Assembly (NCBI GenBank): GCA_030748805.1
Contig: JASMLG010000092.1
Location: 1 to 21,393 of the forward strand
Source: Phycisphaerales bacterium
GTDB taxonomy: Bacteria; Planctomycetota; Phycisphaerae; Phycisphaerales; SM1A02
Direction: 5' to 3'
Length of the DNA: 21,393 bases
The notes below the pieces were generated by a model. The model was not told the origin of the DNA. It made no database searches and saw only the letters and a program-made list of their open reading frames with translations. The translations under genes and the position numbers were made by a program. Positions 1-20,040 of this stretch are shown here, one piece after another. Within the stretch, counting starts at the first letter, position 1. The number at the start of each line of letters is the position of its first letter.

Positions 1-275
1 TCACCAATTCGGCGAATGTTTTCTGTTCGATCTTCTGGTGAGAATCCTAGGTTCTTATTCAAACCCATTCGGATGTTATCACCATCAAGACGGTAAGCGT
101 GGTGCCCACGGCTTAGAAGTACTTGTTCAACTGCAACTGCAATTGTACTTTTGCCAGAACCAGAGAGACCTGTGAACCAAAGGGTTGCACCTTTTTGTCC
201 CATGTTCTGTAATCGTTCTTCTGGTGTGACGGTACCTTCGTGAAAGGTGATGTTTGTTGCTACTTGTTCAGCCAT
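1..275 (-). CDS. cysC: Adenylylsulfate (APS) kinase, partial (C-terminus beyond left edge)
   Basis: Cytoplasmic enzyme that phosphorylates APS to PAPS, the donor used by sulfotransferases. The gene reads leftward from an ATG at 275; 91 codons are present and the rest lies outside the window. The visible protein has the P-loop GLSGSGKST at about residues 37-45, followed by the APS-kinase signatures [12 protein letters not shown] and [17 protein letters not shown]. The start is supported by AAGGA about 8 nt upstream. It lies 35 bp downstream of sat on the same strand, so the two probably form one transcript catalysing sulfate to APS to PAPS. Because only the N-terminus is seen, a fusion at the C-terminus cannot be excluded. 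The family assignment is secure. Confidence 0.95.
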
Positions 276-310
276 TGTAATTTCCTTTTTAGGATGAGTT
301 AATAATTAAA

Positions 311-1486
311 TTATGCGGTTACAGTTGAAGTTGCCCATTCGATGAGTACATCTGCAACTTCTGGTCTTGAGAATTCGGCAGGTGGTCGTTCGCCCTGCTC
401 AAGTAATGCGCGAACTTTTGTGCCTGACAAGAAGATTTGATCGCCTTCAAGTTTCGGGAATGTTTTTGAACTCACCATACCTTGTGCTTTGATTGAATAC
501 GCAGCATGTTCAAATTTAAGTGGAACGATGCCGATTTCTTCTGCAGAGAAGTTATCGAAGATGTTTTGTGCGTCATAAGTTCCGTAGTAATCGCCAACAC
601 CTGCGTGGTCTCGACCGACGATAAAGTGTGTTACGCCATAGTTTTTACGGATAAGTGCGTGCAAAATTGCTTCGCGTGGACCAGCGTATCGCATTGCTCC
701 GGGCATTACAGAGAGCGCTGTGTAATCACGAACGAAGTAATTATCAATAATTGTGTTGTAACAATCCATACGAACATCTGCTGGAATATCGCCTTCTTTT
801 GTTTCACCAACAAGTGGATGAATCAAAAGACCGTCACAAATTTCTTGTGCACATTTGCAAAGGTATTCGTGTGCTCGGTGAATTGGGTTGCGGGTTTGGA
901 ATGCAGCAACTGTGCTCCAACCATTTGTTTTAAACAACTCACGAGTATCTTTCGGTGGCAAGCGGTATTCAGTGAATTGTTCGCCTGGTTCAACTTCAGG
1001 AGTTACGGTTGCAACGTGGATGTCACCACCGATTAGCCACTGGCCTTCGTCCATAACTTGCTTTGCACCTGGGTGTGCATCATCTTCTGTTCCAAATACA
1101 TTTGGAATTTCTAGTGCTTTATCGTGGGCGTAAATTTCATCACAATCGATGATTGCCATGAAAGTACCATCTGCGTGGTAAAGGGCCGCTTTGCCACCTT
1201 CGGTCAAAGTGTTTTTCACATCTTCGTCTACGGCGAGAGTTATTGGAATTGGCCAAACTGTTCCATCAGCGAGACGCATGTCTTTGCAGATTGACTCAAA
1301 GTCTGCCTTTTTGCAGAAGCCGGTGAGTGGGCTGAATGCGCCGATTGCAATCATCTCAAGATCACACGCTTGCTTAGATGAGAGGGTAATGGATGGAAGA
1401 TTTGCTGCTTCTTCGGCAAGGTTGCCGCCAGTAAATCTGTTAACCAAGGTTCCGCCGTGAGGGGCGATGAGGCTTCCTGTTGACAT
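311..1486 (-). CDS. sat: Sulfate adenylyltransferase (ATP sulfurylase, Sat type)
   Basis: Makes APS from sulfate and ATP. The 391-residue protein has the length and layout of the single-chain Sat/MET3-type enzyme (PUA-like N-domain, then the catalytic nucleotidyltransferase domain), not the CysD/CysN pair. Seen in the sequence: QTRNPIHRAHEYL at residues 197-209, holding the nucleotide-binding QxRNP and HxxH motifs; a GRDHAGVGDYYG loop; and the C-terminal SGTKVRALLEQGERPP segment typical of the family. The ATG at 1486 is preceded by GGAG about 10 nt upstream. With cysC 35 bp downstream it forms a PAPS-making unit. Sat can serve assimilation or dissimilation. The neighbouring kinase and two sulfotransferases in the window suggest that supplying PAPS for polysaccharide sulfation is at least one of its jobs (inference). 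Confidence 0.96.
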   Translation of the reverse strand: MSTGSLIAPHGGTLVNRFTGGNLAEEAANLPSITLSSKQACDLEMIAIGAFSPLTGFCKKADFESICKDMRLADGTVWPIPITLAVDEDVKNTLTEGGKAALYHADGTFMAIIDCDEIYAHDKALEIPNVFGTEDDAHPGAKQVMDEGQWLIGGDIHVATVTPEVEPGEQFTEYRLPPKDTRELFKTNGWSTVAAFQTRNPIHRAHEYLCKCAQEICDGLLIHPLVGETKEGDIPADVRMDCYNTIIDNYFVRDYTALSVMPGAMRYAGPREAILHALIRKNYGVTHFIVGRDHAGVGDYYGTYDAQNIFDNFSAEEIGIVPLKFEHAAYSIKAQGMVSSKTFPKLEGDQIFLSGTKVRALLEQGERPPAEFSRPEVADVLIEWATSTVTA

Positions 1487-1589
1487 TGTTTGTAAACTCC
1501 GTTCTAGTTGGGAAAAGGTGGAAAAAAGGGTACGATTCTGTTTCGGCCGACAAGGGCTAGATTTGACATAAAATGTATCGAAACGACCG

Positions 1590-1618
1590 ATAGTACTCGC
1601 TCAGCGACCCTAAATCAA
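1590..1618 (-). promoter_or_regulatory. Possible sat-cysC promoter
   Basis: Read on the minus strand, a -35-like TTGATT (plus 1613-1618) is followed by exactly 17 bp and a -10-like TACTAT (plus 1590-1595). Each hexamer matches the sigma-70 consensus at 4 of 6 positions. It would give a leader of about 95 nt before the sat ATG at 1486. A perfect TTGACA on the opposite strand (1563-1568) faces toward the glycosyltransferase at 1656 but has no convincing -10 at the right spacing. Divergent, overlapping promoters are therefore possible but unproven. Confidence 0.35.
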
Positions 1619-1655
1619 GACCTTTATCGATAATTCACAAGAACACTTGAAAACC

Positions 1656-2795
1656 ATGAAAATACTCCATTATTGTGCCCGTTTACGCCTCATAGATGGG
1701 GGTGTTGTACGAGCAGTTTTGGACTTAACTTCTTCACTTTCTCAGTGTGGTAAAACAGTAACTTTGATGGTGACAGAGGGTGATGACTTTCCAGGAGAAG
1801 ATTCTGGTGTCCAAACAATGAGAACGGGTGACTTTGATCGACCCCCTATCCGCTTTTCAACGGCTCGACTAGCATCTTTGAAACAATATATTGCCGATGC
1901 AGATGTTCTCCACCTTCATACTCCGTGGGAACCGGCAAATATTCAACTTGCCAAAATCGCACGCGATGTTGGAACACCATACGTTGTTTCAGTGCACGGA
2001 ATGCTCGATAACTGGGTGATGAAAACAAGCACTCTAAAAAAACGAATATTCCTTCGTCTTGGTGGTCGCAAGATGTTTCATAAAGCCGCTTGTGTACACT
2101 GCACAGCTCGTGCAGAAGCAGATCAAGCAAGGAGATGGATTCCAAAATCTAACATCGTTGTAGTTCCTCTTGTCTTTGACCCAAGTCTTTATCTTACTCC
2201 GCCACCAACTTCTGATCCTGACAAATATTGGCCACAACGGGAATCAAAAAAACCCATAGTCTTGTTTTTATCTCGAGTTCATCCAAAAAAAGGTGTTGAT
2301 CGGTTACTTCAAGCCGCTGCTGATGTTCTCAAAAAAAATAAGGTTAGATTCATCATTGCAGGAAGCGGAGAACCATCATACGAAAGGCAGTTACAAAAAC
2401 TTGCGGTTGAATTAAATATTGATTCACAAATTGAATTTGTAGGTTTTGTCGATGGAGATCGTAAAGTTGCATTGTTGCGAGCAGCTGACTTGTTCGTACT
2501 TCCAACAAGCCAAGAAAATTTCGGGTTGGTATTTCCTGAAGCAATGGCTTGCGGATTACCTGTTATCACAACCAAAGGTGTAGATATTTGGCCGGAGTTG
2601 GAAGAATCTGGTGGTGCAATAATTATCTCAGAAGACCCAAAATCAATAGCAACTGCAATTAACCAACTCCTCACTAACGGAGATACATGCAAGAAAATGG
2701 GTGAAGCAGCAAGAACGTGGGTTGATTCAACATTTTCTGGAGACTCGGTAGCCAATCAATACATTGGTCTATACAGAACTGCTATTAACGGATAA
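1656..2795 (+). CDS. Glycosyltransferase family 4 (GT-B) protein
   Basis: Cytoplasmic or membrane-associated retaining glycosyltransferase that probably adds one sugar during repeat-unit assembly of a surface polysaccharide. With the ATG at 1656 it is 379 residues; a TTG three codons earlier is also open, but MKILHYCARLR is the usual N-terminal strand of the family. The N-domain shows HLHTPWEP and VHGMLDNW. The C-domain begins at FLSRVHPKKGVDRLL (the common LSRxxxxKG motif), then GSGEPSYE, FVGFVDG and the donor-site EX7E in ENFGLVFPEAMACGLPV (E287 and E295). No clear ribosome-binding site is seen. It is divergent from sat and its stop overlaps that of the next gene, which faces it, by 11 bp. 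Donor and acceptor sugars cannot be told from sequence. Confidence 0.92.
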   Translation: MKILHYCARLRLIDGGVVRAVLDLTSSLSQCGKTVTLMVTEGDDFPGEDSGVQTMRTGDFDRPPIRFSTARLASLKQYIADADVLHLHTPWEPANIQLAKIARDVGTPYVVSVHGMLDNWVMKTSTLKKRIFLRLGGRKMFHKAACVHCTARAEADQARRWIPKSNIVVVPLVFDPSLYLTPPPTSDPDKYWPQRESKKPIVLFLSRVHPKKGVDRLLQAAADVLKKNKVRFIIAGSGEPSYERQLQKLAVELNIDSQIEFVGFVDGDRKVALLRAADLFVLPTSQENFGLVFPEAMACGLPVITTKGVDIWPELEESGGAIIISEDPKSIATAINQLLTNGDTCKKMGEAARTWVDSTFSGDSVANQYIGLYRTAING

Positions 2796-3942
2796 CTTTT
2801 TCGTATGCCTCAATCAACTCTTCAGCGTAGTTATCCCAGTTCCAACGTGCAGCAATATCCTCTTTAGCAGCACGACCCATTTCAGCCGCTTTTTCCAAGT
2901 CAGATAGAATCTCATCAAGAGCAGTTGTCGTAGCTTCTACATCTCCCAAAGGAACTAATAATCCAGTTTCTCCTTCAACAATGAACTCTGGGTTAGACCG
3001 TTGATTTGAAGCAATAACAGGAATACCAGCAGCAAGGGTCTCAGCAATTACAAGTTGTGGATCAATACTCATCTTCCGAATCGGCATCACAACACAAATC
3101 GATTCGAGAAGAAGTTTCGGTAATGTAATACCTTCTTCGTATGGAAAATGATAGAGATGTATATTGTTGTGATTCTCGGCAATCTTATCAATACCTTTGA
3201 TTGGTTCCCAATGTTGCCGAACAGCAAAATCAAAATTAATCTCTGGATACTTAGGCGCTAACTTTTCGTATGCTTCAATCACAACATCTGCACCATTATC
3301 AATGGTTAAGTCTCTCCAAAAAAGTACTCGATGCGGAGCCCCAAGTTCGGGTCCTTCGTACTCATCATTAATATGTCTAATCACTCCATGGGTAATCTGT
3401 GTAGTTGGAATCCCCTCTTTTTCCAAATTTCGTTTTACAAATGAAGTTGCTGTGACAACTGCGTCTATTCGTTTCCATAATCGTTTCGTCAAAAACGAAA
3501 GTCGTTCAGGGAAAAAAGTTCCAAAGATGGTTACGACCACCGGTGTCTTCAAACCCAAAAGTTTTAACCCACCTGCAAGGTGAGCCGTTCTATTAAAACC
3601 AAACAAATGAAGAACATCGAACTTTTGCTCTTTACATATTTTCTTAATTTCTTTTACTTGTTTTAAGAGTTGAAGAATCCTTACTCCAGATCCTTGATTA
3701 CCTGTGCGTTCAAGAATTCCTCCTCTGTTGCGAGAATCTGTCACAAGGTGAACCTTCAAATCATCTGCAAGACAAAATGGTAGGGAACGGTCTTCTCCAA
3801 ACTCATTTGTAATCAGGTGTACATCGTGTCCAGCTTTTCTAAACTCCTCAATACCATTGAGGGGAACTTGAATGTGTCCCGAGACATTGCTCTCGAACCC
3901 TTTTTGCCCAGCAACAACTGAAACAAACACTCCTATTTTCAT
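2785..3942 (-). CDS. Glycosyltransferase family 4-like protein
   Basis: A second GT-B fold glycosyltransferase of 385 residues, likely acting on the same polysaccharide. The N-domain opens with MKIGVFVSVV and has a basic substrate-side loop; the C-domain contains VVIEAYEKLAPKYPEINF and the donor-site segment IAETLAAGIPVIASN (E301), then EGETGLLVPLGD. The first glutamate expected in EX7E is an isoleucine (I293), so the motif is degenerate; this also occurs in active GT4 members and does not by itself imply inactivity. Its ATG lies 3 nt after the stop of the upstream sulfotransferase, which implies co-transcription and probably translational coupling. Its 3' end overlaps the convergent GT gene by 11 bp. 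Confidence 0.9.
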   Translation of the reverse strand: MKIGVFVSVVAGQKGFESNVSGHIQVPLNGIEEFRKAGHDVHLITNEFGEDRSLPFCLADDLKVHLVTDSRNRGGILERTGNQGSGVRILQLLKQVKEIKKICKEQKFDVLHLFGFNRTAHLAGGLKLLGLKTPVVVTIFGTFFPERLSFLTKRLWKRIDAVVTATSFVKRNLEKEGIPTTQITHGVIRHINDEYEGPELGAPHRVLFWRDLTIDNGADVVIEAYEKLAPKYPEINFDFAVRQHWEPIKGIDKIAENHNNIHLYHFPYEEGITLPKLLLESICVVMPIRKMSIDPQLVIAETLAAGIPVIASNQRSNPEFIVEGETGLLVPLGDVEATTTALDEILSDLEKAAEMGRAAKEDIAARWNWDNYAEELIEAYEKVIR

Positions 3943-3945
3943 CAG

Positions 3946-4764
3946 TTAACTCACATTCCAACTAGAAACGTCTCGTTCCAAAAATTTCGACAATCTGCTG
4001 TTATATGGGGCAAAATGTTTTTGCAATCGTTGCTTTGTCTCTTTTTTCATTGGTTGATACGCTCGCCCTTTATTTTTTCGGCTTCTGCGAATTTTATCTC
4101 CAACCCAAGATTGGCTCATCATATTCACTAGAGATTTTAATCCAAGTTGATGCAACATCTTCTTAAGGTTTGGAAACATTGCAGCGTTTTTTCTCTGGCC
4201 TATGAGTTTTGACTCCTCACTTGATTCGACGCCTATAAAATCAAGTATTGTTTTTAAGAACATTTTGTCATCATTATGAAGATCATCATACAAAAGGAAT
4301 AACATTTGTTCTCTGTCATAATGTTTTAAGAGACCTTCAATTTGGTCCATATACTGACCTCGAATAAGTAAATCTTGATCCGATTCTATTGCTTGTTCAA
4401 AACTATTCCATCCGGATTCAATTTTCCTTGATTGGTAGTTGCTATAAGCACGATCGATAGGATTTCGCATCACCATAATTAATTTTACATCTGGAAAATG
4501 CTTTGCCAAAAGACCCGACGCCTCAGGCAAACAATATCCTGTTGCAACTTCTCCAATCGCAAGATGATGAGATTCCACTCCTCTAAATCGTTCCATAAAC
4601 CAATCAATTCCTTTGTCGTAATAACGATCAAAGAAATAGGATTGTTTTTTTTGTGGAAGGAAAACTTCGGAATGACCTCGCAACGCAGCATCCACCCAAG
4701 TTGTGCCACACCGCTGGCAACCCACGACAAAAAAGGTGAGAACAGAGGTGTCCTGAGAAATCAT
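3946..4764 (-). CDS. PAPS-dependent sulfotransferase (Sulfotransfer_1-like)
   Basis: Predicted to move a sulfuryl group from PAPS to a carbohydrate hydroxyl or amine. The 272-residue protein has the 5'-phosphosulfate-binding loop right after the first strand, FFVVGCQRCGTTW (residues 11-23). A lysine-rich LPQKKQSYFFD follows (K39/K40 near the position of the catalytic lysine in heparan-type enzymes), then GEVATGYC, and the 3'-phosphate-binding motif MVMRNPIDRAYSNYQSR (R100, S108). This order matches the glycosaminoglycan sulfotransferase group (NDST and HS-O-ST-like). No signal peptide or membrane helix is visible, so it should act in the cytoplasm where PAPS is made. It is first in a two-gene unit with the GT4 gene 3 nt downstream. 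No good ribosome-binding site is seen at 4764. The acceptor is unknown. Confidence 0.9.
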   Translation of the reverse strand: MISQDTSVLTFFVVGCQRCGTTWVDAALRGHSEVFLPQKKQSYFFDRYYDKGIDWFMERFRGVESHHLAIGEVATGYCLPEASGLLAKHFPDVKLIMVMRNPIDRAYSNYQSRKIESGWNSFEQAIESDQDLLIRGQYMDQIEGLLKHYDREQMLFLLYDDLHNDDKMFLKTILDFIGVESSEESKLIGQRKNAAMFPNLKKMLHQLGLKSLVNMMSQSWVGDKIRRSRKNKGRAYQPMKKETKQRLQKHFAPYNSRLSKFLERDVSSWNVS

Positions 4765-4856
4765 GCGAGGAATATAACAGAGTTCATTGAAGGATAGTTG
4801 GGTGTAGAGTTGGCGATGTTTCTATGGAAAAGATGGTGGTCTGAGTTGTCTAGGAG

Positions 4857-6260
4857 TCAAAGAGGTAGAACGCACTCTCCCCATAACGAGATGAGATCAA
4901 CGATATCTAATGCGTTAACAGTACCATTTCCATCTACGTCTCCTAAACAACATTGATCTATGCAGTCGCCCCAATTCGTAATCAGAATAACAAGATCTCC
5001 AACAGCAACCGAACCGTCCCCGTCTAAATCACCATAACACTGTGGACATCCCAATTGGTCGACTTCGTTCAAATGGATGCTTGTATAACCGCCATCATTT
5101 GTATCCGCAGTCAGTATATCTGGTCTTCCATCAGCGTTCATATCTGCAGTAATGACATGGGCTGGCGCCTTTAAGGAAAGCAATTCAAAAATGTTTGCTA
5201 TTAAAGCCTGCCCATTATTTTCATAAATATACACAAATTTTTCTTGTTCAATACCCCCCACATGGGAAACTATCACGTCTGGTTTACAATCTCCGTTGAT
5301 GTCATCAATCGTATTGGAGTGTGGGAGTTGATGCGTTGGATATATCCCAATCTCTGAAAAAACCATACCACCATAATTTTTCAAAATCCATAGAGTGTTA
5401 GTATCTTTATGGATGACTGCTAAATCACCTAAGCCATCTTGGTCGAGGTCTCCAATGGCGACATATCTCGGTTGCAAATCAACAGAAATACTCGCTGCAT
5501 TAACAAAAGTTCCTGCACCTGTGTTTTCGATGATTGTCAGTGTATCATCACCGAGGTTTGATACAGCGATATCAAGATCACCATCCGAATCAAGATCTCC
5601 AACATCAATACCACGCGGTTTATTTCCAGATGAAACATCAACGCCAGAAAAGGACGCGTGCCCATTATTCAGTAGAATAGTTGTGATCGACGGTGATGCT
5701 CCCGGATTTTTTGCTTCAGCATCCCAATGAGGCAAGATTAAATCTGAATCACCATCTCCATCAATATCTGAAACAGCGATACAACTTGATCGAAGATAGA
5801 ATATCTCATCGAATACCGTTAGGTTACCGAAACCATCATTCAATAAAATAGAGACAGAACCGCCATCATATCCACCCTCTACGGCCCCAGCTTCCCAGTT
5901 TGCAGTTGCAGCGTCGATATCTCCATCGTTATCAAAATCGCCTGCGACGACGTACCGTGGGATTGAACCAGAACTAAGTGTGACTGTTGAATTAAGCGAA
6001 AGATTCCCTAAGCCATCCCCCACGAATATCATCACCTCGTCGGTTAGCCGGTTTGAAACAGCAACATCAAGAAGACCATCGCCATTAAAGTCTGCAGCTT
6101 CAACTCCAGTTGTTTCCGCCGGAAATTCATTGCACGGGCTCGTGTCGTACTGATTCTGTGGCGCAAAATTCCATTGGCATTGAAAAGCATTTGCCGATGA
6201 ACAAATAACAAATGAAATCGCCAAAGCACTAGAACTACGCTGTAGGTGCATACGTACCAT
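4857..6260 (-). CDS. Secreted FG-GAP/VCBS-repeat beta-propeller protein with C-terminal dockerin-like repeats
   Basis: Extracellular or periplasmic protein of 467 residues. A signal peptide is visible (hydrophobic stretch about residues 11-25, probable cleavage after SANA). The ATG at 6251 (fourth codon) is an equally possible start. Seven calcium-loop repeats of the DxDxDGxxD type begin near residues 57, 108, 165, 222, 271, 319 and 373, spaced 48-57 residues, as expected for a seven-bladed integrin-alpha-like propeller. The sixth reads DINGDCKPD, with Cys for the usual Gly. The C-terminus (408-462) carries two EF-hand-like dockerin units, GDLDGDGSVAVGDLVILI and GDVDGNGTVNALDIVDLI, each ending in WG(D/E)C. 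In Phycisphaerae such tails are common on secreted proteins. A structural or binding role is more likely than catalysis. Its link to the polysaccharide genes is by position only. Confidence 0.88.
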   Translation of the reverse strand: MVRMHLQRSSSALAISFVICSSANAFQCQWNFAPQNQYDTSPCNEFPAETTGVEAADFNGDGLLDVAVSNRLTDEVMIFVGDGLGNLSLNSTVTLSSGSIPRYVVAGDFDNDGDIDAATANWEAGAVEGGYDGGSVSILLNDGFGNLTVFDEIFYLRSSCIAVSDIDGDGDSDLILPHWDAEAKNPGASPSITTILLNNGHASFSGVDVSSGNKPRGIDVGDLDSDGDLDIAVSNLGDDTLTIIENTGAGTFVNAASISVDLQPRYVAIGDLDQDGLGDLAVIHKDTNTLWILKNYGGMVFSEIGIYPTHQLPHSNTIDDINGDCKPDVIVSHVGGIEQEKFVYIYENNGQALIANIFELLSLKAPAHVITADMNADGRPDILTADTNDGGYTSIHLNEVDQLGCPQCYGDLDGDGSVAVGDLVILITNWGDCIDQCCLGDVDGNGTVNALDIVDLISLWGECVLPL

Positions 6261-6327
6261 ACCTAACTCTAGACTATAATATGAAGAAATGCAATTCCAA
6301 AAATTACATCAAGACGAAAATTGCTAT

Positions 6328-6345
6328 TTATACCACTTATACCAC
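6328..6345. repeat. Tandem 9-bp direct repeat upstream of the flippase gene
   Basis: TTATACCAC occurs twice in perfect tandem (6328-6336 and 6337-6345) in the 102-bp divergent spacer between the propeller gene and the flippase gene. It lies about 18 bp before the flippase ATG. It could be a regulator half-site pair, but nothing shows binding. Confidence 0.6.
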
Positions 6346-6350
6346 ATTAA

Positions 6351-6361
6351 ACCGGTCCGGT
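6351..6361. promoter_or_regulatory. Short inverted repeat abutting the flippase start codon
   Basis: ACCGG-T-CCGGT is a perfect inverted repeat ending one base before the ATG at 6363, where a ribosome-binding site would normally lie. No Shine-Dalgarno sequence is present. It could be an operator or influence translation; function is inferred only from position. Confidence 0.35.
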
Positions 6362-6362
6362 A

Positions 6363-7970
6363 ATGAGTGATAAGCTGATTTCTACTCCTTCAGAGAAGTT
6401 AAAAGGGCTTCATCGCATTGGCACGAATTATGGCCGACTCATTGCAACAATGGCAATGGGAATTGCAACTGTCCCACTGCAATTCAAATGGCTTGGGATG
6501 GATGGATTTGGTCTTATTAGTCTAGTTGGCTCGTCTATTGGAATTGGGGGAATGTTACAAGACATGATGCGAAGTTCGATGGTCAGAGAACTTGGCGACG
6601 CTTGGCATCGAAGAGAAGATGGTAAATTTCAAGAAAGTTTCGCAGCTGCATTCCTCGTCAGCGCGTATGTCACAATCCTCACAGCACTGATTTTCGCAGG
6701 AATCATATTCTTACTTTTACCAGTTCTAGATATTCCTTCCAACTGGCTCGGCTCTGCTCAATGGATTACCGCCTGTTCTGGGATTTCAACTTGTTTGGTT
6801 GTTTTACTTGCCCCGACGATTAACATGCTCGTAGTTCGAGAACATTTTTTCTGGCATAACTTATGGACGGTTTCTTCTAGAAGTGCTTTCTTGATCGCAA
6901 CAATTATCCCCTTTCTCATTTTTAATGTAACTGACATACCCCAAGGGCTTACCCTATTTGGATACATCATCATGATAGTCGGTGTTGCTAGTACTCTCCT
7001 TCTTATCGGTGGATTCGTTATAGTCGATCGTCGAATGTTTCCAACTTACAGAGGTTCGACCCGCGAAGCGATGAAAAAAGTTGCGGGCACATTTGGTTGG
7101 AATAGCGGCGTGGTCGGTGCAATGAATCTTCACGAGCGAGTTGCTAATTACATTATGAATTATTTCTTTGGGTTGTGGGGAAACGCAGTATTTACTCTCG
7201 CGCTAAGATTGGTCAGTTACATTCGAATGGCATCTCTGGGACTTACCTTTGGTCTTGATTCGGTGAGCGCACGGCTTAGTTCTACAGAAGATCACACAAC
7301 CCTCAAATCAATGTTTAGACATAGCACAAGGATGCTCGGATTTGTTTCATTCCCAGCGATGGTTGTTGTGTTTGTGATAGCAGAACCCTTACTTCGCATG
7401 TGGGTTGGGCGAAGTATTGAAAACCCAACAGAAATTCTTCCTGCATCAGAAATACTTGTCAAAATCATGGTGGTTGGTCTTGCCTGCAGAGCCGTGTCAG
7501 ATGGGTGGATGAAATTATTTTATGGAGCAGGACACATTAGAAAATATGCCCCATACGTTTTCGCAGGTGGATTATTCAATCCAATCCTGTCTGTTTTACT
7601 CATTTTTATACTGCCAACAAATATCGCATTCACAGGTGCGGCAATCGCTTACTCGGTCGTTTTCTTTGTTGTACACATGATTATCATGCCACAAGTTTCT
7701 GCTAAAAGCGTTGGACTCACACTAGGAAAAATACTCCGACCTTCCTTTCGACCCCTTGCAATTGCAATTGCTGTCGCTCCAACATTGTTGATACCAAACT
7801 ATTTTTCAGATACCGAACTTATGAAGTGGACGGGGGTCATCGGAAGTGTTTGTTGTTATGGGATTGCCTACTCAGTTACAAGTTGGTGTTTCCTTCTATC
7901 TAAACGAGAACGAGGGGGAATTCAACGCCTTATTCTGCAATTAACAAAGCGTCAAGCGGGGACTCGATAA
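6363..7970 (+). CDS. Polysaccharide flippase, Wzx/MOP superfamily
   Basis: Integral inner-membrane protein of 535 residues, predicted to flip lipid-linked oligosaccharide to the periplasmic face. A short polar N-terminus leads into a long series of hydrophobic segments (about 12-14 by eye), including stretches near residues 35-60, 95-125, 135-160, 170-190, 197-225 and several in the C-terminal half, with short basic loops between. This is the profile of RfbX/Wzx proteins of the MATE/MOP exporter group, and the size is slightly above the usual 420-500. The start ATG lacks a recognisable ribosome-binding site. The gene is divergent from the propeller gene, and its 3' end overlaps the convergent polymerase/ligase gene by 19 bp. 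Wzx next to a Wzy/WaaL-like protein indicates Wzx/Wzy-type export. The specific substrate is not deducible. Confidence 0.85.
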   Translation: MSDKLISTPSEKLKGLHRIGTNYGRLIATMAMGIATVPLQFKWLGMDGFGLISLVGSSIGIGGMLQDMMRSSMVRELGDAWHRREDGKFQESFAAAFLVSAYVTILTALIFAGIIFLLLPVLDIPSNWLGSAQWITACSGISTCLVVLLAPTINMLVVREHFFWHNLWTVSSRSAFLIATIIPFLIFNVTDIPQGLTLFGYIIMIVGVASTLLLIGGFVIVDRRMFPTYRGSTREAMKKVAGTFGWNSGVVGAMNLHERVANYIMNYFFGLWGNAVFTLALRLVSYIRMASLGLTFGLDSVSARLSSTEDHTTLKSMFRHSTRMLGFVSFPAMVVVFVIAEPLLRMWVGRSIENPTEILPASEILVKIMVVGLACRAVSDGWMKLFYGAGHIRKYAPYVFAGGLFNPILSVLLIFILPTNIAFTGAAIAYSVVFFVVHMIIMPQVSAKSVGLTLGKILRPSFRPLAIAIAVAPTLLIPNYFSDTELMKWTGVIGSVCCYGIAYSVTSWCFLLSKRERGGIQRLILQLTKRQAGTR

Positions 7971-9316
7971 TCAGTAAAATCTTCTAACTCTGCAGGTTCT
8001 TCGTCATCCAACAAATCCCACTCATCCCTAAGAACGCGTCTGACACCACTATCTCGAATGTCACTCCATAAACAGATAAAGAAACTAGCCATGACAACAT
8101 GCAAAAACGACCAAGTGTATGTAGGCCAATAAACCACTTGGTTAAAGCATCCCTGAACATACATAGCAAGAAGTAGCAGGTATGAAATACTATAAAGCAA
8201 GGGATCTCCGACAATTTGTTTTCGTTTTCTCCACACACGAAGACCTGAGTAGGATGAGTAAACTACTAAAGAAAACATTGGTACAAACAACATCAGTCCA
8301 CCGTGATACATCATGTTCATCCACGCACTATGTGGATGCATTCCAATGATAGGAGATTTGAAATAATACCCGTCATTTGTTCCAAGCAGCCCAGTCAGTG
8401 GACGACGTGAAAATTCTTCTGTGATATATCTAAGCCACAACTGTGGTCTCCCAGTATCTAAGTTAGTCATCCGTTCCATTGGAGCTATGTCAGCGCCAAT
8501 TGACATAATCCACCCTAACCCAAGAACTGCAATTGTAACACCAAGAATTGTGATGATAGGCCTCTTAGATAGAACCCAAATAATTGGAAATGATGTCATT
8601 ACAATCGCAATATTCGTTTGCCTACTTGCAGTAAGAAGAGCCATCCCTAGGGTAATCGAAAGCATGAAGATCAAGAATGGCTTATATTTTTTTGGCCATG
8701 TCATCATTGCGTACCCAAGCAGAGGAGCTGAAAGGGCAAAAAGCATTCCAATCTGATTGGAGTTTGTTCCCCATGGTTGGAATCGCCCAACTCCCTTTAA
8801 GAAAGAATCCCCAGGGAATAAAATTAGCGCAGAAATTGGTATAGCTAGAGCAACTAAACATCCAACCGTAAAAGCATTAATAATCCTCTTGAAATCAGCA
8901 TAAGTCACAACTGTGCTAATCAAGGCAAGAGCAGAAAGTGTAAAACACAACCACTGAATTCTTAACACAACCCCAACACTTGGATCTTGCACACCTAAAA
9001 TTGCGACAATCCACACCATTGCCATTGAAGGATATATCCACAAAATTCCAGGTATCTTTCTCTTTGGTCCTGGATGTGTCAATGCTGAGAACGCTACAAG
9101 TAAAAAAGCGAAACCTGAGGTTAGTTTTGCTGCTGCTGCAATTAAACTTAATTCTTGGGCACTTCCAATTTGTAACCAAGGGGCTAACAGTACGATAGAC
9201 AAAAATAACCGATGGGCTTTTGGGACAAGGAAGTAGGAGATGAATGCAAAAATAAATGGCGACAAGAGCCAAGGCTGAGTCGTAATAATTTCTAGATAAA
9301 CATCAGTGCGTTCCAT
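7952..9316 (-). CDS. O-antigen polymerase/ligase family membrane protein (Wzy/WaaL-like)
   Basis: Polytopic inner-membrane protein of 454 residues with about 10-12 hydrophobic segments. It is predicted to polymerise flipped repeat units or to ligate the chain to an acceptor on the periplasmic side. Seen: GTNSNQIGM (about 183-191) and TASRQTNI (229-236), similar to the SxSR motif of the family; TGRPQLWLRYITEEF (288-302); and a large periplasmic loop ending in GMHPHSAWMNMMYHGG (325-340), carrying the histidine (H327/H329) typical of the Wzy_C/O-antigen ligase loop. The charged C-terminal tail is probably cytoplasmic. Wzy and WaaL cannot be separated on sequence alone; proximity to the flippase favours a role in the same pathway. 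The gene is convergent with the flippase (19-bp overlap). Confidence 0.83.
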   Translation of the reverse strand: MERTDVYLEIITTQPWLLSPFIFAFISYFLVPKAHRLFLSIVLLAPWLQIGSAQELSLIAAAAKLTSGFAFLLVAFSALTHPGPKRKIPGILWIYPSMAMVWIVAILGVQDPSVGVVLRIQWLCFTLSALALISTVVTYADFKRIINAFTVGCLVALAIPISALILFPGDSFLKGVGRFQPWGTNSNQIGMLFALSAPLLGYAMMTWPKKYKPFLIFMLSITLGMALLTASRQTNIAIVMTSFPIIWVLSKRPIITILGVTIAVLGLGWIMSIGADIAPMERMTNLDTGRPQLWLRYITEEFSRRPLTGLLGTNDGYYFKSPIIGMHPHSAWMNMMYHGGLMLFVPMFSLVVYSSYSGLRVWRKRKQIVGDPLLYSISYLLLLAMYVQGCFNQVVYWPTYTWSFLHVVMASFFICLWSDIRDSGVRRVLRDEWDLLDDEEPAELEDFTDYRVPA

Positions 9317-9477
9317 TGAGGTCTTTGGGATGGTATCGGATAATTCATTACTGTGGCTCCCCCAAGAATTAGAGATCTACTATGCCTCGCGGGTAATTCG
9401 AAGGGAATACGGCAATAATTCACTCGGACAATATTTTGTTCTCAATTGACAAGACTACTAGCAACACAAATTTGCCA

Positions 9478-9483
9478 TATAAT
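9478..9483 (+). promoter_or_regulatory. Possible -10 element before the GH56-like gene
   Basis: A perfect TATAAT lies 7 bp before an in-frame GTG (9491). A perfect TTGACA occurs at 9446-9451, but the spacer is 26 bp, too long for a normal promoter. If the -10 is real, transcription would begin near 9490 and the GTG message would be nearly leaderless. Confidence 0.3.
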
Positions 9484-9490
9484 AGGTATT

Positions 9491-10570
9491 GTGATTGGTA
9501 ATAAGTTTTTGCTTGTCATATCAACGGTGTTGTGTAACAGTTTTGTTGCAGCCTCTTTTTGCGACTGGAAACCCATCATCTACAATTCGATAAAATGGAC
9601 CGCTGCTGATCAAGGGGTACTTACCATTACCTACACGACTGAACATGGAATCACTAGGGTGCCCATTGCCTATCACGGAGGTGTAGATACTAATGCTTCG
9701 GGTGAAATTACAGATAAGAATATAAGTCATTTCACAGAATGGGCTGATGAAACGCTTCCTACTAATTATTGTGGACCTGTTGTACTAGATTACGAGGAAC
9801 CTTGGTGGAAAGAATTACAAGCAAAAACAATTCTTCCAGATAGATTAAGGGAAATCCTAGGAGTGTATTCTGAAGGAATTCGAGTCGCTCATAACATACG
9901 ACCTTCTTCACAGTGGGGATACTGGGGACTTCCTCTTTTACGAAACACTAGTGAATCCTGGACTAGTCAAGGTCTATCTCTAGAACCTCTCATCAGTTCG
10001 TGTAATGCTCTCTATCCTGATGTATACAATTGCACACCTGGGCTAGATCGGTCTCGTCAAGCAGAACAACATATTTCAAATGTGCTGCAACTTGCCGCAG
10101 GAAGAATGCCCGTCTTTGTATTCGCTTCAGTGAGATATTGCGGTCCTGATGTAGGTCATTCTGATTTCGTTCCAGACGAGATTTTTCTTAAGCAAGTCAA
10201 CGCAGCTTTGCGGGCATCTTGGATCGATGAGTTTGGAAATCAACATCGAATAAAAGGAATAATCTTATGGGACAATTATGGTTTTTCTCAGGAAAGCGAA
10301 TGGGGATCACTTGATCAAAAGCACAAATACTATTTTGAGTTACTCGAGGCATTATCAGAAGCTTGGGAAAAAGCAATGAAGGGGAAAAAGGTTATTGTGG
10401 AGCCACCAAAGCCCAAAGTATGTCAGTATGGACTATCAGAGCCCGCAAATAGTGGTGAGACTATCTTCATCCGAGCAAATCGAGAGCATCCACAAGAGAT
10501 GAAAGAAGTCATCCAAGAAAACACCCGTGTCCCAAGTGGTCGTGTTGGAGGCAATAGAGTAACTGAGTAG
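9491..10570 (+). CDS. Secreted GH56 (hyaluronidase)-like putative glycoside hydrolase
   Basis: The reading frame is open from a TTG at 9446, with no in-frame ATG near the start. The GTG at 9491 is preferred because it gives a compact signal peptide (K5, then a hydrophobic stretch, then FVAAS) and is preceded by TAGG. In the 374-residue TTG-start numbering, the protein follows the order of GH56 landmarks: GPVVLDYEEPWW (110-121, with a DxE pair D115/E117 like the catalytic Asp-x-Glu of hyaluronidases), RPSSQWGYWGLP (152-163), CNALYPDVYNC (186-196), HISNVLQLA and MPVFVFASVRYC, and GIILWDNYGF (271-280, like the GVVLW strand). It would cleave or remodel a uronic-acid/hexosamine-type polymer outside the cytoplasm. 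GH56 is best known from animals and venoms, so this is a remote-homology call made by eye. Neighbours (flippase, polymerase, sulfotransferase) fit polysaccharide processing. The C-terminal 60 residues are polar and unassigned. Confidence 0.6.
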   Translation: MIGNKFLLVISTVLCNSFVAASFCDWKPIIYNSIKWTAADQGVLTITYTTEHGITRVPIAYHGGVDTNASGEITDKNISHFTEWADETLPTNYCGPVVLDYEEPWWKELQAKTILPDRLREILGVYSEGIRVAHNIRPSSQWGYWGLPLLRNTSESWTSQGLSLEPLISSCNALYPDVYNCTPGLDRSRQAEQHISNVLQLAAGRMPVFVFASVRYCGPDVGHSDFVPDEIFLKQVNAALRASWIDEFGNQHRIKGIILWDNYGFSQESEWGSLDQKHKYYFELLEALSEAWEKAMKGKKVIVEPPKPKVCQYGLSEPANSGETIFIRANREHPQEMKEVIQENTRVPSGRVGGNRVTE

Positions 10571-10622
10571 TCACTTTAACAAATCAAGAACCTCGGTGGT
10601 TTGTACACTACTACCAAATATC

Positions 10623-11516
10623 ATGTCAACTAACAACGATCTAAAACCACCTATATTTCTAATCGGAAATGTTCGCTCAGGTACCACGATGTTTCATCAC
10701 ATTTTCAATCTGCACGAGGAGGTAGAAAGTTGGTATGAGCCAAGAACAATTTGGGTGTATGGCGCGCCCAGACGACGACACGATAGGTTCACCTCGGAAG
10801 ACGCCACGAAGCGAGTTAAACGATACATTCGAAAGCGCTTTATCAAACACCAACGATCTCATGGAAATCGTAGGATTATGGAAAAAACACCTTCGAATAT
10901 TATGAGAATTCCATATGTAGAATCTATATTCCCAGAATCAAAGTACCTGTACATTATAAGGGAACCTTTCGCAAACCTAAGTTCTGCTGAGATTCGGTGG
11001 AAATTTGAAAGTAATTGGCATCATCTTTGGGTGAGATTTTTGGAATGTCCAAAAACACAAATCCCACACTATCTAAATAGGTTTCTTGTAGATCGATATC
11101 GACATTACATTCTTAGAAAAGAATACTTTTCGGTATGGGGGGTTCGATACCCCGGCATCTATGAAGACCTAAAACAAATATCACTTGAAGAACTTATTTG
11201 CAAGCAATGGGTCGAATGTTCTAAACAGGCAGAAGAAGACCTTTCAAAAATGGATCCTTCTAAAGTAATGCGAATTCGATATGAAGATTTTGTTGAAAAA
11301 CCTGTCGAAATATACCGTGAAGTAGCTAATTTTTTTGAGATTGAATTAACTAAGAAAATTGAATCACAAATCAGCGAGATGGTTGACCCTAGCCGCCAAG
11401 ACAAGTGGAAACGGCTAGACAAAGACATTTTGCGTCGATGTTTTCCTATTTTAAAAGATGAGATGCAAAGACATGGGTACAAGACAAACGAGATAGAAAA
11501 AATTCTTTCTGCTTAA
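10623..11516 (+). CDS. Sulfotransferase family protein (Sulfotransfer_3-like)
   Basis: A second PAPS-dependent sulfotransferase, 297 residues from the ATG at 10623. A GTG at 10596 would add nine residues, but neither start has a clear ribosome-binding site; the ATG places the PAPS loop at the usual distance from the N-terminus. Motifs in order: IFLIGNVRSGTTMFHHIF (11-28, 5'-phosphosulfate loop), RRIMEKTPSNIMRIPYV (the EKTP motif of this family), SKYLYIIREPFANLSSAE (106-123, 3'-phosphate site with R113 and Ser120/121), and MRIRYEDFVEKP. No membrane segment is visible. It differs clearly from the sulfotransferase at 3946-4764, suggesting a different position or acceptor. It lies 52 bp after the GH56-like gene on the same strand. 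Its 3' end overlaps the convergent next gene by 4 bp. Confidence 0.88.
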   Translation: MSTNNDLKPPIFLIGNVRSGTTMFHHIFNLHEEVESWYEPRTIWVYGAPRRRHDRFTSEDATKRVKRYIRKRFIKHQRSHGNRRIMEKTPSNIMRIPYVESIFPESKYLYIIREPFANLSSAEIRWKFESNWHHLWVRFLECPKTQIPHYLNRFLVDRYRHYILRKEYFSVWGVRYPGIYEDLKQISLEELICKQWVECSKQAEEDLSKMDPSKVMRIRYEDFVEKPVEIYREVANFFEIELTKKIESQISEMVDPSRQDKWKRLDKDILRRCFPILKDEMQRHGYKTNEIEKILSA

Positions 11517-12223
11517 TCTTTTTGTAATTGTTGCAAGCGCCTTAAAAATTTTATCCGTCGCATTGCAGTGTTCTCACCTGCGTTTAGCTGACGATTGCCA
11601 CTGTTTTTGTCACGAATTTTATTCTTTAAGTTTTCTGGACTCAAATCGCCTTCACTCATCTCATCCATTTCTTGAGCGCTTTTAGCTTTACGCTCTTCAC
11701 GCCGTTTAGTTTCTTCATCGATTTTTAGCTGATACGTTATTTGAAAATCTTTTTGTTGATCTCTTGTGAGTAATTTCCACGCACGCTCTTGATAGGTTGT
11801 AATGTCCGGAGCTAACTCCATCAATTCAATCATTCTCGCTCGAGAATCTTCAGAAGGGACTTCGTCGCTTTTCTTTACTGCATTGTGATTTTTACGAATC
11901 GAAGCAAGTTCTTTTCCGTGCGTCTTGTGAAACAATTTTTGTTCTTCTTGAAGCTCTTTCATAACCAATTCGATTTCTTCTTGTTGTGTAGAAGAAAGTT
12001 CGATGGACTTTAATGAAGAAGTCCAGATTTTCATCTGAGACCGATTATTCATCTTTTGTTTTTTGCCAGTTTCATCCAATCTTCGAGAAAGCAAATCGCT
12101 ATCGGTAACTGCTTCTCTATCGATTGCTGGTCCAGCAAGCAAATCATCTGCTGGTGGCGAAGCAATTGCCAGACTTCCAAAGAAAAGTGTTGTTGTAATA
12201 ACGAGTGTTGAGTGCATGTTCAT
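11513..12223 (-). CDS. Secreted helical Spy/LTxxQ-like hypothetical protein
   Basis: Protein of 236 residues with a clear signal peptide (MNMHSTLVITTTLFFGSLAIAS, cleavage near residue 22). The mature part is highly charged and appears mostly helical. Two short motifs resemble the LTxxQ signature of Spy/CpxP periplasmic proteins: ELSSTQQEEIELV (about 75-87) and KLLTRDQQKDF (150-160). The last 60 residues are rich in Lys, Arg, Glu and Asn. A good ribosome-binding site (AAGGA, 8 nt upstream) supports the ATG at 12223. Similar proteins are widespread in planctomycetes with unknown roles; chaperone or metal/stress functions are suggested only by analogy. It is divergent from mrp and convergent (4-bp overlap) with the sulfotransferase gene. 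Confidence 0.65.
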   Translation of the reverse strand: MNMHSTLVITTTLFFGSLAIASPPADDLLAGPAIDREAVTDSDLLSRRLDETGKKQKMNNRSQMKIWTSSLKSIELSSTQQEEIELVMKELQEEQKLFHKTHGKELASIRKNHNAVKKSDEVPSEDSRARMIELMELAPDITTYQERAWKLLTRDQQKDFQITYQLKIDEETKRREERKAKSAQEMDEMSEGDLSPENLKNKIRDKNSGNRQLNAGENTAMRRIKFLRRLQQLQKD

Positions 12224-12248
12224 TAGAGGGTTCCTTTTTGTTCGTAAG

Positions 12249-12277
12249 GGTACAACGAAGAATTCACGCTATATAAT
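12249..12277 (+). promoter_or_regulatory. Probable mrp promoter
   Basis: A perfect -10 TATAAT (12272-12277) sits 17 bp after a weak -35, GGTACA (12249-12254). Transcription would start near 12284, giving a leader of about 20 nt that contains AAAGG (12295-12299) just before the ATG at 12305. Confidence 0.5.
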
Positions 12278-12304
12278 GCCATTTTTATACGATGAAAGGT
12301 AAAA

Positions 12305-13393
12305 ATGGCCCTACAACCCTCAAATCTTCGCAATGCACTTGGCTCAATCGTCGATCCTGACTCAGGAAAGGACATTGTGACCGCTGGGATGGTAAAAGAC
12401 ATTCAAACAGATGGCGACAATATATCGTTGGAAATTGAACTTTCTTCACCTGAATCTCCATTACAAGAAAGATTGAGTGAGCAAATTGAATCTGCAATCA
12501 GATCAACAAGCCACGAGTGCAAGGAAGTTGTAGGTTCAATTCAAATCAGTTTTAGTGCAGATACTCGCAGTGCAAATGAACGTGTTCGTGAAGAAACAAA
12601 TCCTCTACCGGGAATAAAAAAAATTATTGCAGTTGGCGCTGGCAAAGGAGGCGTTGGAAAGTCAACCGTCTCAACAATTATTGCTGTAGGTCTTGCAAGG
12701 CAAGGTGCGAAAGTTGGGCTGCTTGATGGAGATATTTATGGGCCTTCTATGACAACAATGCTCGGCTTGCATCGCGAAGAATCAAAAGCGCAAGACAACT
12801 TCCTCCTTCCATTTGAAGTGCATGGAATTAAAGCAATGACAATTGGAAAACTTGTCGAACCAGACAAGGCACTAATTTGGAGAGGTCCAAGAGCACACAG
12901 TGCATTTAGCCAACTTGCATTACAAACCAAGTGGGGAGAACTTGATTACTTAATTGTTGATTTACCGCCTGGAACTGGTGATGTTCCACTTTCCCTTGCA
13001 CAACTGTTACCACTTTCCGGAGCAGTAATTGTTTGTACACCACAAGTCGTTGCACAAGACGATGCAAGACGCGCAGTTAGGATGTTCCAAGAACTCGGTA
13101 TTCCAATTTTGGGACTCGTTGAGAATATGTCGTACTTCGTAGCAGACGATGGCAAAGAATATGACATCTTTGGTCGTGGGGGTGGTGAGCAAATGGCTGC
13201 AGCAATGAATGTTGGCTTCCTTGGCGGTATTCCAATTCATCCAGACATGAGAGTTAGTGCTGACACTGGCGAACCACTTAAAAACTGGGAAATCAATGCC
13301 ACAATGTCAAAAGCATTTGACAATGTGTGCGGCAATTTTATCTCATCTGCTGAATCTACAACCCTTGACCGCCCCACCCTCTCCATCAACTAA
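12305..13393 (+). CDS. mrp: Mrp/NBP35 (ApbC) family P-loop ATPase
   Basis: Cytoplasmic ATPase of the MinD/Mrp group, commonly linked to loading or carrying Fe-S clusters. The 362-residue protein has a MIP18/DUF59-like N-domain (about residues 3-85) and an ATPase domain with the deviant Walker A GKGGVGKST (113-121), GLLDGDIYGPSM (138-149) and VDLPPGTGD (218-226), then VENMSYF (272-278). Where many ApbC proteins carry CxxC after ENMSxF, this one reads ADDGKEYDIFG, so that pair of cluster-ligand cysteines is missing; several bacterial Mrp proteins also lack it. AAAGG upstream supports the ATG. Single gene with its own promoter, divergent from the Spy-like gene and convergent with the CPBP protease gene. 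Confidence 0.93.
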   Translation: MALQPSNLRNALGSIVDPDSGKDIVTAGMVKDIQTDGDNISLEIELSSPESPLQERLSEQIESAIRSTSHECKEVVGSIQISFSADTRSANERVREETNPLPGIKKIIAVGAGKGGVGKSTVSTIIAVGLARQGAKVGLLDGDIYGPSMTTMLGLHREESKAQDNFLLPFEVHGIKAMTIGKLVEPDKALIWRGPRAHSAFSQLALQTKWGELDYLIVDLPPGTGDVPLSLAQLLPLSGAVIVCTPQVVAQDDARRAVRMFQELGIPILGLVENMSYFVADDGKEYDIFGRGGGEQMAAAMNVGFLGGIPIHPDMRVSADTGEPLKNWEINATMSKAFDNVCGNFISSAESTTLDRPTLSIN

Positions 13394-13427
13394 AAAAACG
13401 ACCCGCGGGATAGTTAATTTTCTGAAA

Positions 13428-14822: not shown

Positions 14823-14845
14823 AGCTCAATAATACCATCGTAGAG

Positions 14846-14874
14846 TTGACAAAATGTGCCCTTTTCGGTACATT
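14846..14874 (+). promoter_or_regulatory. rplM-rpsI promoter
   Basis: A perfect -35 TTGACA (14846-14851), a 17-bp spacer and a -10 TACATT (14869-14874, 4 of 6) form a good sigma-70-type promoter. The start would be near 14881, giving a leader of about 40 nt. The TTG of the -35 is in frame with rplM and creates a false longer reading frame. Confidence 0.72.
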
Positions 14875-14920
14875 TCCATGTTCGCCCTTTTATATCAAGG
14901 GCTCAGAAGGATATAAGATT

Positions 14921-15355: not shown

Positions 15356-15364
15356 AGTAATAAC

Positions 15365-15383
15365 GTTACCGACGTTCGGTAGC
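15365..15383 (+). promoter_or_regulatory. Hairpin in the rplM-rpsI intergenic leader
   Basis: TACCGA-CGT-TCGGTA (15367-15381) is a perfect 6-bp stem with a 3-nt loop, extendable by a U-G and a G-C pair to 15365-15383. No U-run follows, so it is not a standard terminator. It starts 9 nt after the rplM stop and could be an RNA processing site or a binding site for autoregulation by a ribosomal protein (inference). Confidence 0.45.
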
Positions 15384-15427
15384 AATACAACAAGTTCTCA
15401 AGAGGAGCTCCAAGAGCTTACGAACAA

Positions 15428-19936: not shown

Positions 19937-20040
19937 CCGTGCAATTCTTACAAAACTTTCTACCTATGTATTCAAGAACAAAAACCTTCCAAGGTACTAT
20001 CGTCCACGTAGCGATTCTACCACCAAAACAATAGAACACG

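Follow-up and report, generated by a model that had tools for sequence, protein, structure and literature searches.

The DNA stretch analysed here (hereafter the window) comprises 21,393 nucleotides of a contig from a Phycisphaerales bacterium, and ten genes fill its positions 1-11516: cysC for adenosine 5'-phosphosulfate (APS) kinase, sat for ATP sulfurylase, two genes for GT4 glycosyltransferases (GT4a and GT4b), a sulfotransferase gene (ST1), and the genes for an FG-GAP repeat protein, a flippase, a Wzy/WaaL-like protein, a GH56-like enzyme and a second sulfotransferase (ST2). Profile matches and coordinates place all genes named in a preliminary description of this DNA where that description had put them (Table 1). 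It had also proposed that the genes are dedicated to a sulfated glycan and include a source of 3'-phosphoadenosine 5'-phosphosulfate (PAPS), and this proposal is supported by the gene content, by synteny and by the detection of sulfate reduction genes in none of 14 locus-bearing genomes. We estimate a probability of about 0.8 that the product of the block is a sulfated surface glycan and that the block has a sulfate-activation step of its own. Two findings, the lack of detected reduction genes in the locus-bearing genomes and the exchange of a central cassette, go beyond the preliminary description.

Gene content and conservation of the block

A search with the GH56-like protein yielded 67 homologues, and those with a named source all came from Phycisphaerales, Phycisphaerae, Planctomycetes/Planctomycetota or the 'PVC group'. 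An alignment of 40 of these homologues with the window protein (A1) was used to scan genome contigs and revealed 15 loci (L001-L015) in 14 genomes of Phycisphaerales, Phycisphaerae or Planctomycetota (the locus genomes), from organisms which we take to be marine, judging from isolate names. Gene orders derived from a crude open reading frame (ORF) caller and BLAST show that the order cysC-sat-(GT4a)-GT4b-ST1-(FG-GAP)-Wzx-Wzy-GH56-(ST2)-orf-Mrp-CAAX-L13-S9 is kept in 14 of the 15 loci, as far as the contigs extend, and that it persists even where the proteins of relatives are only about 40-55% identical. Synteny was seen in L001-L009 and L011-L015 and also in L048 and L057, so that the synteny check suggested by the preliminary description shows a conserved neighbourhood across Phycisphaerales-type genomes and a chance neighbourhood is ruled out. 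The three genes Wzx-Wzy-GH56 are consecutive in 12 loci (L002-L009 and L012-L015, the GH56 gene of L013 being taken from the contig scan), ST1 adjoins GT4b in all 12 loci that span both (L057 included), and GT4a is not found between sat and GT4b in L006, L007, L009, L012-L015 and L057. Besides sat, eleven loci of the clade include further genes of the block (L002, L003, L006, L007, L009, L010, L012-L015 and L057), and in ten of them sat lies beside GT4b or is separated from it by GT4a alone. The grouping of sat-cysC with assimilation genes that the preliminary description had considered was not seen. For contrast, the sat neighbourhoods of four other genomes of the order (L058-L061) contained no match to ST1 or GT4b beside sat.

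Among locus-bearing relatives CysC, which has a full length of about 204 residues in most of them, is 79-99% identical over the 91 residues present in the window, and Sat is 75-96% identical. GT4a shares 97% identity with its counterpart in L004 and 64-75% with those in L002 and L003. The flippase, in which a crude count finds eight hydrophobic stretches, is 39-72% identical in relatives. Reading of the sequence of the FG-GAP protein suggests a signal-like N-terminus and dockerin-like C-terminal repeats. Similar proteins are also encoded near ST1 in the more distant genomes of L047, L048, L051 and L053, and for this reason the protein may bind or carry the glycan.

Outward of cysC, pilin-like genes are found in four relatives (L006, L009, L012, L014) and, in two of these (L006, L009), also a release-factor gene, and the block thus occupies one site in those genomes where both ends are visible. 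On the right side of the window the conserved flank starts with orf11513, a small protein without family match, and beyond S9 follow genes for a helix-turn-helix protein, a PF02621 (menaquinone-biosynthesis) protein, an alanine racemase and a DEAD-box helicase. The CPBP/CAAX protease at 13428-14822 shows below-cut-off matches to exosortase/myxosortase-associated proteases and adjoins the locus in every relative whose contig extends that far.

Table 1. Features of the window, with coordinates, strand and profile evidence
Feature	Position	Strand	Evidence and remarks
cysC, APS kinase	3..275	-	PF01583 95 bits; N-terminal 91 aa, cut by window edge
sat, ATP sulfurylase, sopT type	311..1486	-	NF003166 508 bits (cut-off 387) and TIGR00339 431 bits, both over cut-off
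GT4a, glycosyltransferase	1647..2795	+	PF00534 138 bits; likely start ATG 1656
GT4b, glycosyltransferase, usual ST1 partner	2785..3942	-	PF00534 61 bits; contains left breakpoint ~3526
ST1, heparan-sulfate-type sulfotransferase	3946..4764	-	PF00685 75 bits
FG-GAP repeat protein, variable member	4857..6260	-	PF13517 122 bits; only some relatives have it
Wzx-type flippase	6363..7970	+	PF01554 (MatE) 33 bits; PF13440 below cut-off
Wzy/WaaL-fold membrane polymerase or ligase	7952..9316	-	
GH56-like secreted glycosidase (predicted)	9446..10570	+	likely start GTG 9491; D115-Y116-E117
ST2, second sulfotransferase	10596..11516	+	PF13469 76 bits; likely start ATG 10623; contains right breakpoint ~11184
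Exchanged cassette: N-terminal GT4b part, ST1, FG-GAP, Wzx, Wzy, GH56-like, first part of ST2	3526..11184		
Conserved right flank: orf11513, Mrp, CPBP/CAAX protease, ribosomal L13, S9	11513..15901		outside pathway; marks fixed site

The preliminary description had likened the PAPS loops of the sulfotransferases to those of glycosaminoglycan (GAG)-modifying enzymes, and a likeness to such enzymes holds for ST1 and not for ST2. ST1 matches the heparan-sulfate (HS) 3-O-sulfotransferase (3-OST; 3e-15) and N-deacetylase/N-sulfotransferase (NDST; 4e-10), although its best match is an uncharacterised bacterial enzyme (3rnl, 5e-22). Its 5' PAPS loop QRxGTTW and residue E72 do not vary among the 11 orthologues compared, and E72 aligns with the glutamate of the EKTPSYF stretch in 3-OST-3. 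The matches of ST2 are weak (CurM, 4e-6, and protein-tyrosine sulfotransferases) and include no GAG enzyme. No hydrophobic 19-mer was found in ST1 or ST2, and ST1 is probably cytosolic. Among L001-L015, ST2 occurs in L001-L004 only, the contig of L010 stopping short of the place of ST2.

The GH56-like protein is predicted from its structural model to adopt the GH56 fold, with an identity of only 13-17% to hyaluronidases (PDB 2atm, 1fcq, 2pe4 and 9jub). The residues D115-Y-E117 are conserved in 41 of the 41 proteins of A1 and align, in low-scoring segments, with DWE of human Hyal-1 and PH-20; the DxE motif is, as we take it, catalytic in GH56. Simple membership in the Pfam family was rejected, as PF01630 remained below cut-off in the window protein (15.4 versus 23.2 bits), and for this reason the enzyme is called GH56-like and not GH56; PF01630 is carried by 2 of the 67 homologues. 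Besides the low identity and the sub-cut-off Pfam score, the bacterial host and the setting within a glycan-synthesis block distinguish the window enzyme from GH56 hyaluronidases. The C-terminal tail of the family (about 10500-10570 in the window, and in A1 homologues) is modelled with low confidence and contains RVPSGR-like motifs, which are conserved, in some cases occur repeatedly and might act as a processing or anchoring signal. A second GH56-like paralogue with a longer frame (about 460-585 residues) lies outside the locus in G003, G004, G007, G010, G012, G013 and G199. The GH56-like gene of G199 in L048 (16746-17800) has one in-frame TAG and may be decaying or mis-sequenced.

Sulfate activation and sulfate reduction genes

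The APS/PAPS reductase family PF01507, which presumably also includes CysD, was found over cut-off in none of the 14 locus genomes, whereas 14 of 14 control genomes were positive; one sub-threshold match in G013 (20.4 versus 22.5 bits) was counted as absent. Similarly, the sulfite reductase family PF01077, which we assume also covers DsrAB, was detected in 0 of 14 locus genomes and in 11 of 14 control genomes. The genome check for reductase genes that the preliminary description had suggested therefore came out in its favour in these relatives, dissimilatory sulfur metabolism was rejected on the PF01077 result, and assimilation was rejected as the role of sat-cysC on the results for both families. 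In the same 14 genomes the sulfotransferase family PF00685 and the outer membrane polysaccharide export (OPX) family PF02563 were both found in every case, which makes draft gaps an unlikely cause of the absent reduction genes. Sat was detected in 12 of the 14, and in the other two (G001 and G008) the locus contigs stop before sat. It is suggested by these profile searches that the locus genomes probably activate sulfate and do not reduce it, and that their Sat-CysC most likely feed sulfation only, sulfation being the one evident use of PAPS in genomes that seem unable to reduce sulfate. For the window's own genome the claim of no reduction is based on its kinship with the 14 locus genomes. 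Sulfatases, found in 12 of the 14 at 0-7 places each, were uninformative as a clue.

In a sample of 201 genomes from the order of G004, Sat proteins fall into two score classes, with at least 282 bits or at most 217 bits. Among the 79 genomes with a higher-scoring Sat, 60 had neither reduction family, 18 both and one PF01507 only, whereas of the 17 genomes with a lower-scoring Sat 16 had both and one neither. When any PF01747 Sat was considered, 61 of 96 genomes lacked both families. The association between Sat class and PF01507 gave a Fisher p of 8e-8, uncorrected for relatedness. The sulfation-only pattern thus extends beyond this locus.

ST1 was matched at E<=1e-30 in 30 of the 201 genomes, with at most 12 candidates scored per genome, and the 13 with strong orthologues (E<1e-118) were followed. 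GT4b adjoins ST1 in 12 of these 13, and in G119 it lies about 6 kb away. Sat is present in 12 of the 13 genomes and is encoded on the same contig within 20 kb of ST1 in nine; in G007 sat is split across two contigs, one of which is the ST1 contig, and in G004 it is located where a contig ends. No wide occurrence of the ST1 family in the phylum was found: only 4 of 392 sampled genomes, all four also in the order sample, matched at E<=1e-60 with at most six candidates scored per genome.

Probable exchange of the central cassette

The window was compared with L004, its closest relative (L056 in the case of sat). Protein identities are 96-97% for sat and GT4a, 91% for GT4b and 88-98% from orf11513 to the racemase, and they fall to 52-79% from ST1 to ST2. 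Identity at fourfold-degenerate sites is 66-92% outside and 30-56% in the centre; one value runs counter to the pattern of the flanks, as the DEAD-box protein has 88% protein identity and only 45% fourfold identity (55 sites) over its N-terminal 120 residues. In bins of 200 bases the nucleotide identity is 0.94-0.97 up to position 3400, 0.54-0.81 at 3600-11200 (one bin 0.92), 0.86-0.98 at 11200-15900, and mostly 0.86-0.98 beyond 15900, with dips of 0.81-0.83 at 17600-17800 and 20000-20470. A two-state change-point fit places the breakpoints at 3526 within GT4b and at 11184 within ST2. Overall, the parts to either side match L004 with an identity of about 92-95%, and the part enclosed by the breakpoints with about 60-70%. 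Inside the divergent region a patch in Wzx (7200-7600) has a nucleotide identity of 0.81-0.92, which is unexplained and is perhaps a second conversion event.

L001, which is distant at the flanks, is nearer to the window than L004 in Wzy (78 versus 67%), in the GH56-like protein (69 versus 61%) and in ST2 (82 versus 79%). For ST2, L004 ranks above L001 by nucleotide and fourfold identity, and the end of the L004 ST2 gene lies past the breakpoint. A tree of the centre (Wzy and GH56) groups the window with L001 (100/100) and L002 with L003 and L004 (100/99), whereas a tree of the flank (Mrp, CAAX and L13) groups the window with L004 (100/100). Approximately unbiased (AU) tests of groups that were chosen after inspection of the identity table rejected the window with L004 in the centre (1.8e-6), and at the flank the window with L001 (6e-59) and the group L002-L004 (9e-5). 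L010 and L011 were omitted from the trees, as were the CAAX protein of L009 (two frames) and GH56, Mrp and L13 of L013 (merged or missed by the ORF caller). The presence or absence of ST2 in 14 rows requires one change on the central tree and four on the flank tree, and the second sulfotransferase travels with one cassette type.

O-antigen and capsule loci show this combination of a divergent centre, conserved flanks and discordant trees, and from these comparisons the middle of the block looks like an exchanged cassette of that kind. As the centre is swapped while sat-cysC and the flanks stay, the sulfated glycan would change its type over time. An assembly artefact, in which metagenome contigs are chimeric, would also produce mosaic identities, and the compared genomes are metagenome bins. 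This explanation is nevertheless very improbable, because the GT4b and ST2 frames stay open across both breakpoints in the window and in L004, because the discordance extends over several assemblies (the window and L004, L003 and L005, L002 and L012, and L001 and L009 pair at the flank and not in the centre), and because of the single ST2 change on the central tree.

Proposed function of the block and related systems

Gene content, synteny, the lack of reduction genes in the drafts, predicted folds and mosaic history are the observations on which the following scheme is built, and from them we infer what the enzymes do, in which order the steps follow, what the product is and where it lies, and what drives selection. 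Sat and CysC would convert sulfate and ATP to PAPS in the cytosol. A short lipid-linked oligosaccharide would be formed by GT4b, in some loci together with GT4a, and by initiating enzymes encoded elsewhere; ST1, and in some lineages ST2, would sulfate it in the cytosol. The Wzx-type flippase would then move the oligosaccharide to the periplasm, where the Wzy/WaaL-fold protein would polymerise the flipped unit or attach it to a carrier. Like the built-in hydrolases of other polysaccharide systems, the secreted GH56-like enzyme might trim or clear the product, and the glycan type would shift by cassette exchange, as with surface antigens and phage receptors.

Several observations weigh against a dedicated, self-contained sulfated-glycan locus. 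The 14 locus genomes are draft metagenome bins, and each has 3-9 PF00685 places at E<=0.001, so that the locus is not the sole PAPS user and PAPS also serves other products. In G041 the ST1 orthologue lies about 325 kb from Sat, and G027 has ST1-GT4b without Sat. L010, on a second contig of G005, is rearranged, with sat adjoining Wzy and without GT4b, ST1 or Wzx; it is perhaps a rearranged version of the locus, or perhaps the result of a mixed bin. Two extra PF00685 sulfotransferases lie beside or beyond cysC in L010 (141-2235). A polymer pathway is incomplete with only the two GT4 enzymes and the one or two sulfotransferases, and Pfam recognised among the block proteins no priming enzyme, co-polymerase, OPX protein or sugar-nucleotide gene. 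A priming enzyme of the class PF02397, the only class considered, is present in 7 of the 14 locus genomes, and OPX is encoded in all 14 at a separate place; a complete Wzx/Wzy polymer pathway within the block is not supported by these two results. VIA-align was the sole source of the putative Wzy/WaaL assignment, and a Foldseek search with the Wzy model gave no lead.

OPX neighbourhoods were inspected at 5 of the 14 places (L062, L063, L064, L066 and L067), with Pfam applied to L062 proteins only. In L062 (2384-5929) the OPX gene adjoins an exosortase EpsH-DUF3485 fusion, BLAST found counterparts of this fusion in the other four, a very large protein is also encoded at these places, and in L062-L064 the stretch includes, within about 10 kb, genes for an extra sulfotransferase and a GT4 enzyme. 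The genomes may thus contain a second envelope-glycan region, and some parts are possibly common to both regions.

The explanations that compete with a sulfated surface glycan made by its own activation step differ in what they say about sat-cysC and about the product. The two genes could be ordinary sulfur-assimilation genes that lie by chance beside a polysaccharide locus, as Sat-CysC is the usual entry to sulfate assimilation and as 18 of the 79 genomes of the order with a higher-scoring Sat also carry both reduction families, a co-occurrence that counts against a sulfation-only role as well. However, with neither reduction family over cut-off in any locus genome and with sat remaining beside glycan genes across deep divergence, this is hardly credible. 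With regard to the product, a short sulfated oligosaccharide, ligated by the WaaL-fold protein to lipid A or proteins, is a real possibility in place of a polymer, although one that we consider less likely than not. Both the flippase and the Wzy/WaaL-fold protein are present in the block, polymerase and ligase were not told apart, and since WaaL, Wzy and O-glycan ligases have one common fold, the match cannot choose between them; the hyaluronidase-fold hydrolase suits a polymer better, and the occurrence of OPX in all locus genomes, at another place, also speaks against the short product.

That the product is truly GAG-like, as the preliminary description had put it, meaning a repeat with beta-linked N-acetylhexosamine that is cut by the GH56-like enzyme and sulfated in the HS style, is plausible, if unproven, and on balance unlikely. 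The predicted GH56 fold with its aligned DxE, the likeness of ST1 to HS enzymes and the sulfated GAG-like exopolymers reported, in the text available, for Pontiella, a PVC bacterium, favour it. On the other side, ST1 is nearer to the uncharacterised bacterial enzyme than to HS enzymes, ST2 gives no such hint, both transferases belong to GT4, and the GH56-like protein is remote from hyaluronidases. Only tentatively do we put forward the fuller proposal that in a whole lineage of small-genome Phycisphaerales the sulfation of surface glycans is the sole purpose of sulfate activation and sulfate is never reduced, that the coat is GAG-like and serotype-like with a hyaluronidase-fold enzyme built into its assembly, and that the cassette which determines the glycan and its sulfation pattern, with one or two sulfotransferases, is swapped between species through recombination in GT4b and ST2 with the PAPS supply fixed.

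Marine sulfated glycans are mostly credited to algae and animals, and bacteria, planctomycetes above all, are viewed as degraders. The planctomycete lineage studied here looks like a maker of sulfated glycans, which spends on PAPS though its own sulfur is apparently acquired in reduced form. If this is true, the combination 'sulfate activated but not reduced' would be a practical marker for bacterial sulfated-glycan makers. The exchanged cassette points to selection on the sulfation pattern, perhaps by phages or grazers, and cassettes with and without ST2 would form a direct test set. For the synthesis and cleavage of GAG-like polymers, ST1, ST2 and the GH56-like enzymes offer new candidates.

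A precedent for the whole gene set was not found in the literature texts available. Texts on planctomycete sulfotransferases, with subscription journals and preprints outside scope, contained no locus of this kind, and the one paper found that names both Phycisphaerae-type bacteria and sulfotransferases speaks of such enzymes in general terms only, in the portions available. A Shark Bay study that used PF13469 queries reports, in its available part, that most planctomycete orders there are without sulfotransferase. The statement of the preliminary description that such systems are little described was nonetheless too strong. Chemically proven sulfated capsules with clusters containing cysDNC and sulfotransferases are described in the available text for Vibrio sp. 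KMM 8419 (PMC11641403) and Cobetia marina KMM 1449 (PMC11766843), and the Vibrio authors regard PAPS genes together with sulfotransferases as a hallmark of sulfated polysaccharide synthesis (PMC11641403). As in the window, PAPS synthesis, sulfotransferases, glycosyltransferases and export genes lie there in one polysaccharide cluster. The cluster of KMM 8420, a conspecific Vibrio strain, differs from that of KMM 8419 (PMC11641403), a situation reminiscent of the exchange in the window locus. According to the same texts, the Vibrio and Cobetia clusters have CysDN-CysC (a second copy in Vibrio), ATP-binding cassette (ABC; Kps) export, about 70-80 genes and sugar-nucleotide synthesis, whereas the window locus has a sopT-type Sat with CysC, Wzx and a Wzy/WaaL-fold protein, about ten genes and a GH56-like enzyme, and in the locus genomes sulfate reduction genes were not found. 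With Wzx and a Wzy/WaaL-fold protein instead of ABC capsule export, it is a variant of the Vibrio/Cobetia kind.

Other systems, as far as described in the available texts, share single traits with the block. The synechan xss cluster of Synechocystis (PMC8205485) likewise pairs Wzx and Wzy with two sulfotransferases from separate subfamilies, but has eight glycosyltransferases, a co-polymerase and regulators, with no GH56-like gene seen in the text available and the term 'PAPS' absent from the main text. The cluster for a GAG-like exopolymer in Pontiella (PMC7356697) is similar in its marine PVC host and in the GAG-type sulfotransferase within a glycosyltransferase cluster; the Pontiella strains have cysDNCHIJKM and assimilate sulfate, and 'PAPS' and 'adenylyl' are absent from the main text (PMC7356697). 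Rhizobia with NodPQ-NodH (PMC6192434) also use extra sulfate-activation genes for sulfated cell-surface glycans, but these are of the NodPQ type, CysH and CysIJ are also present, and lipo-chitooligosaccharide and lipopolysaccharide are the targets (PMC6192434). In Marine Group IIb archaea, CysDN and CysC occur and PAPS was proposed to serve sulfotransferases, with no glycan locus described alongside in the text available (PMC6864105). The locus in the window is real, conserved and most probably dedicated to sulfation, and its kind is already known from Vibrio and Cobetia; what stands out is that the tested locus genomes have no sulfate reduction genes, that a hyaluronidase-fold enzyme forms part of the block, and that the sulfation cassette is exchanged.

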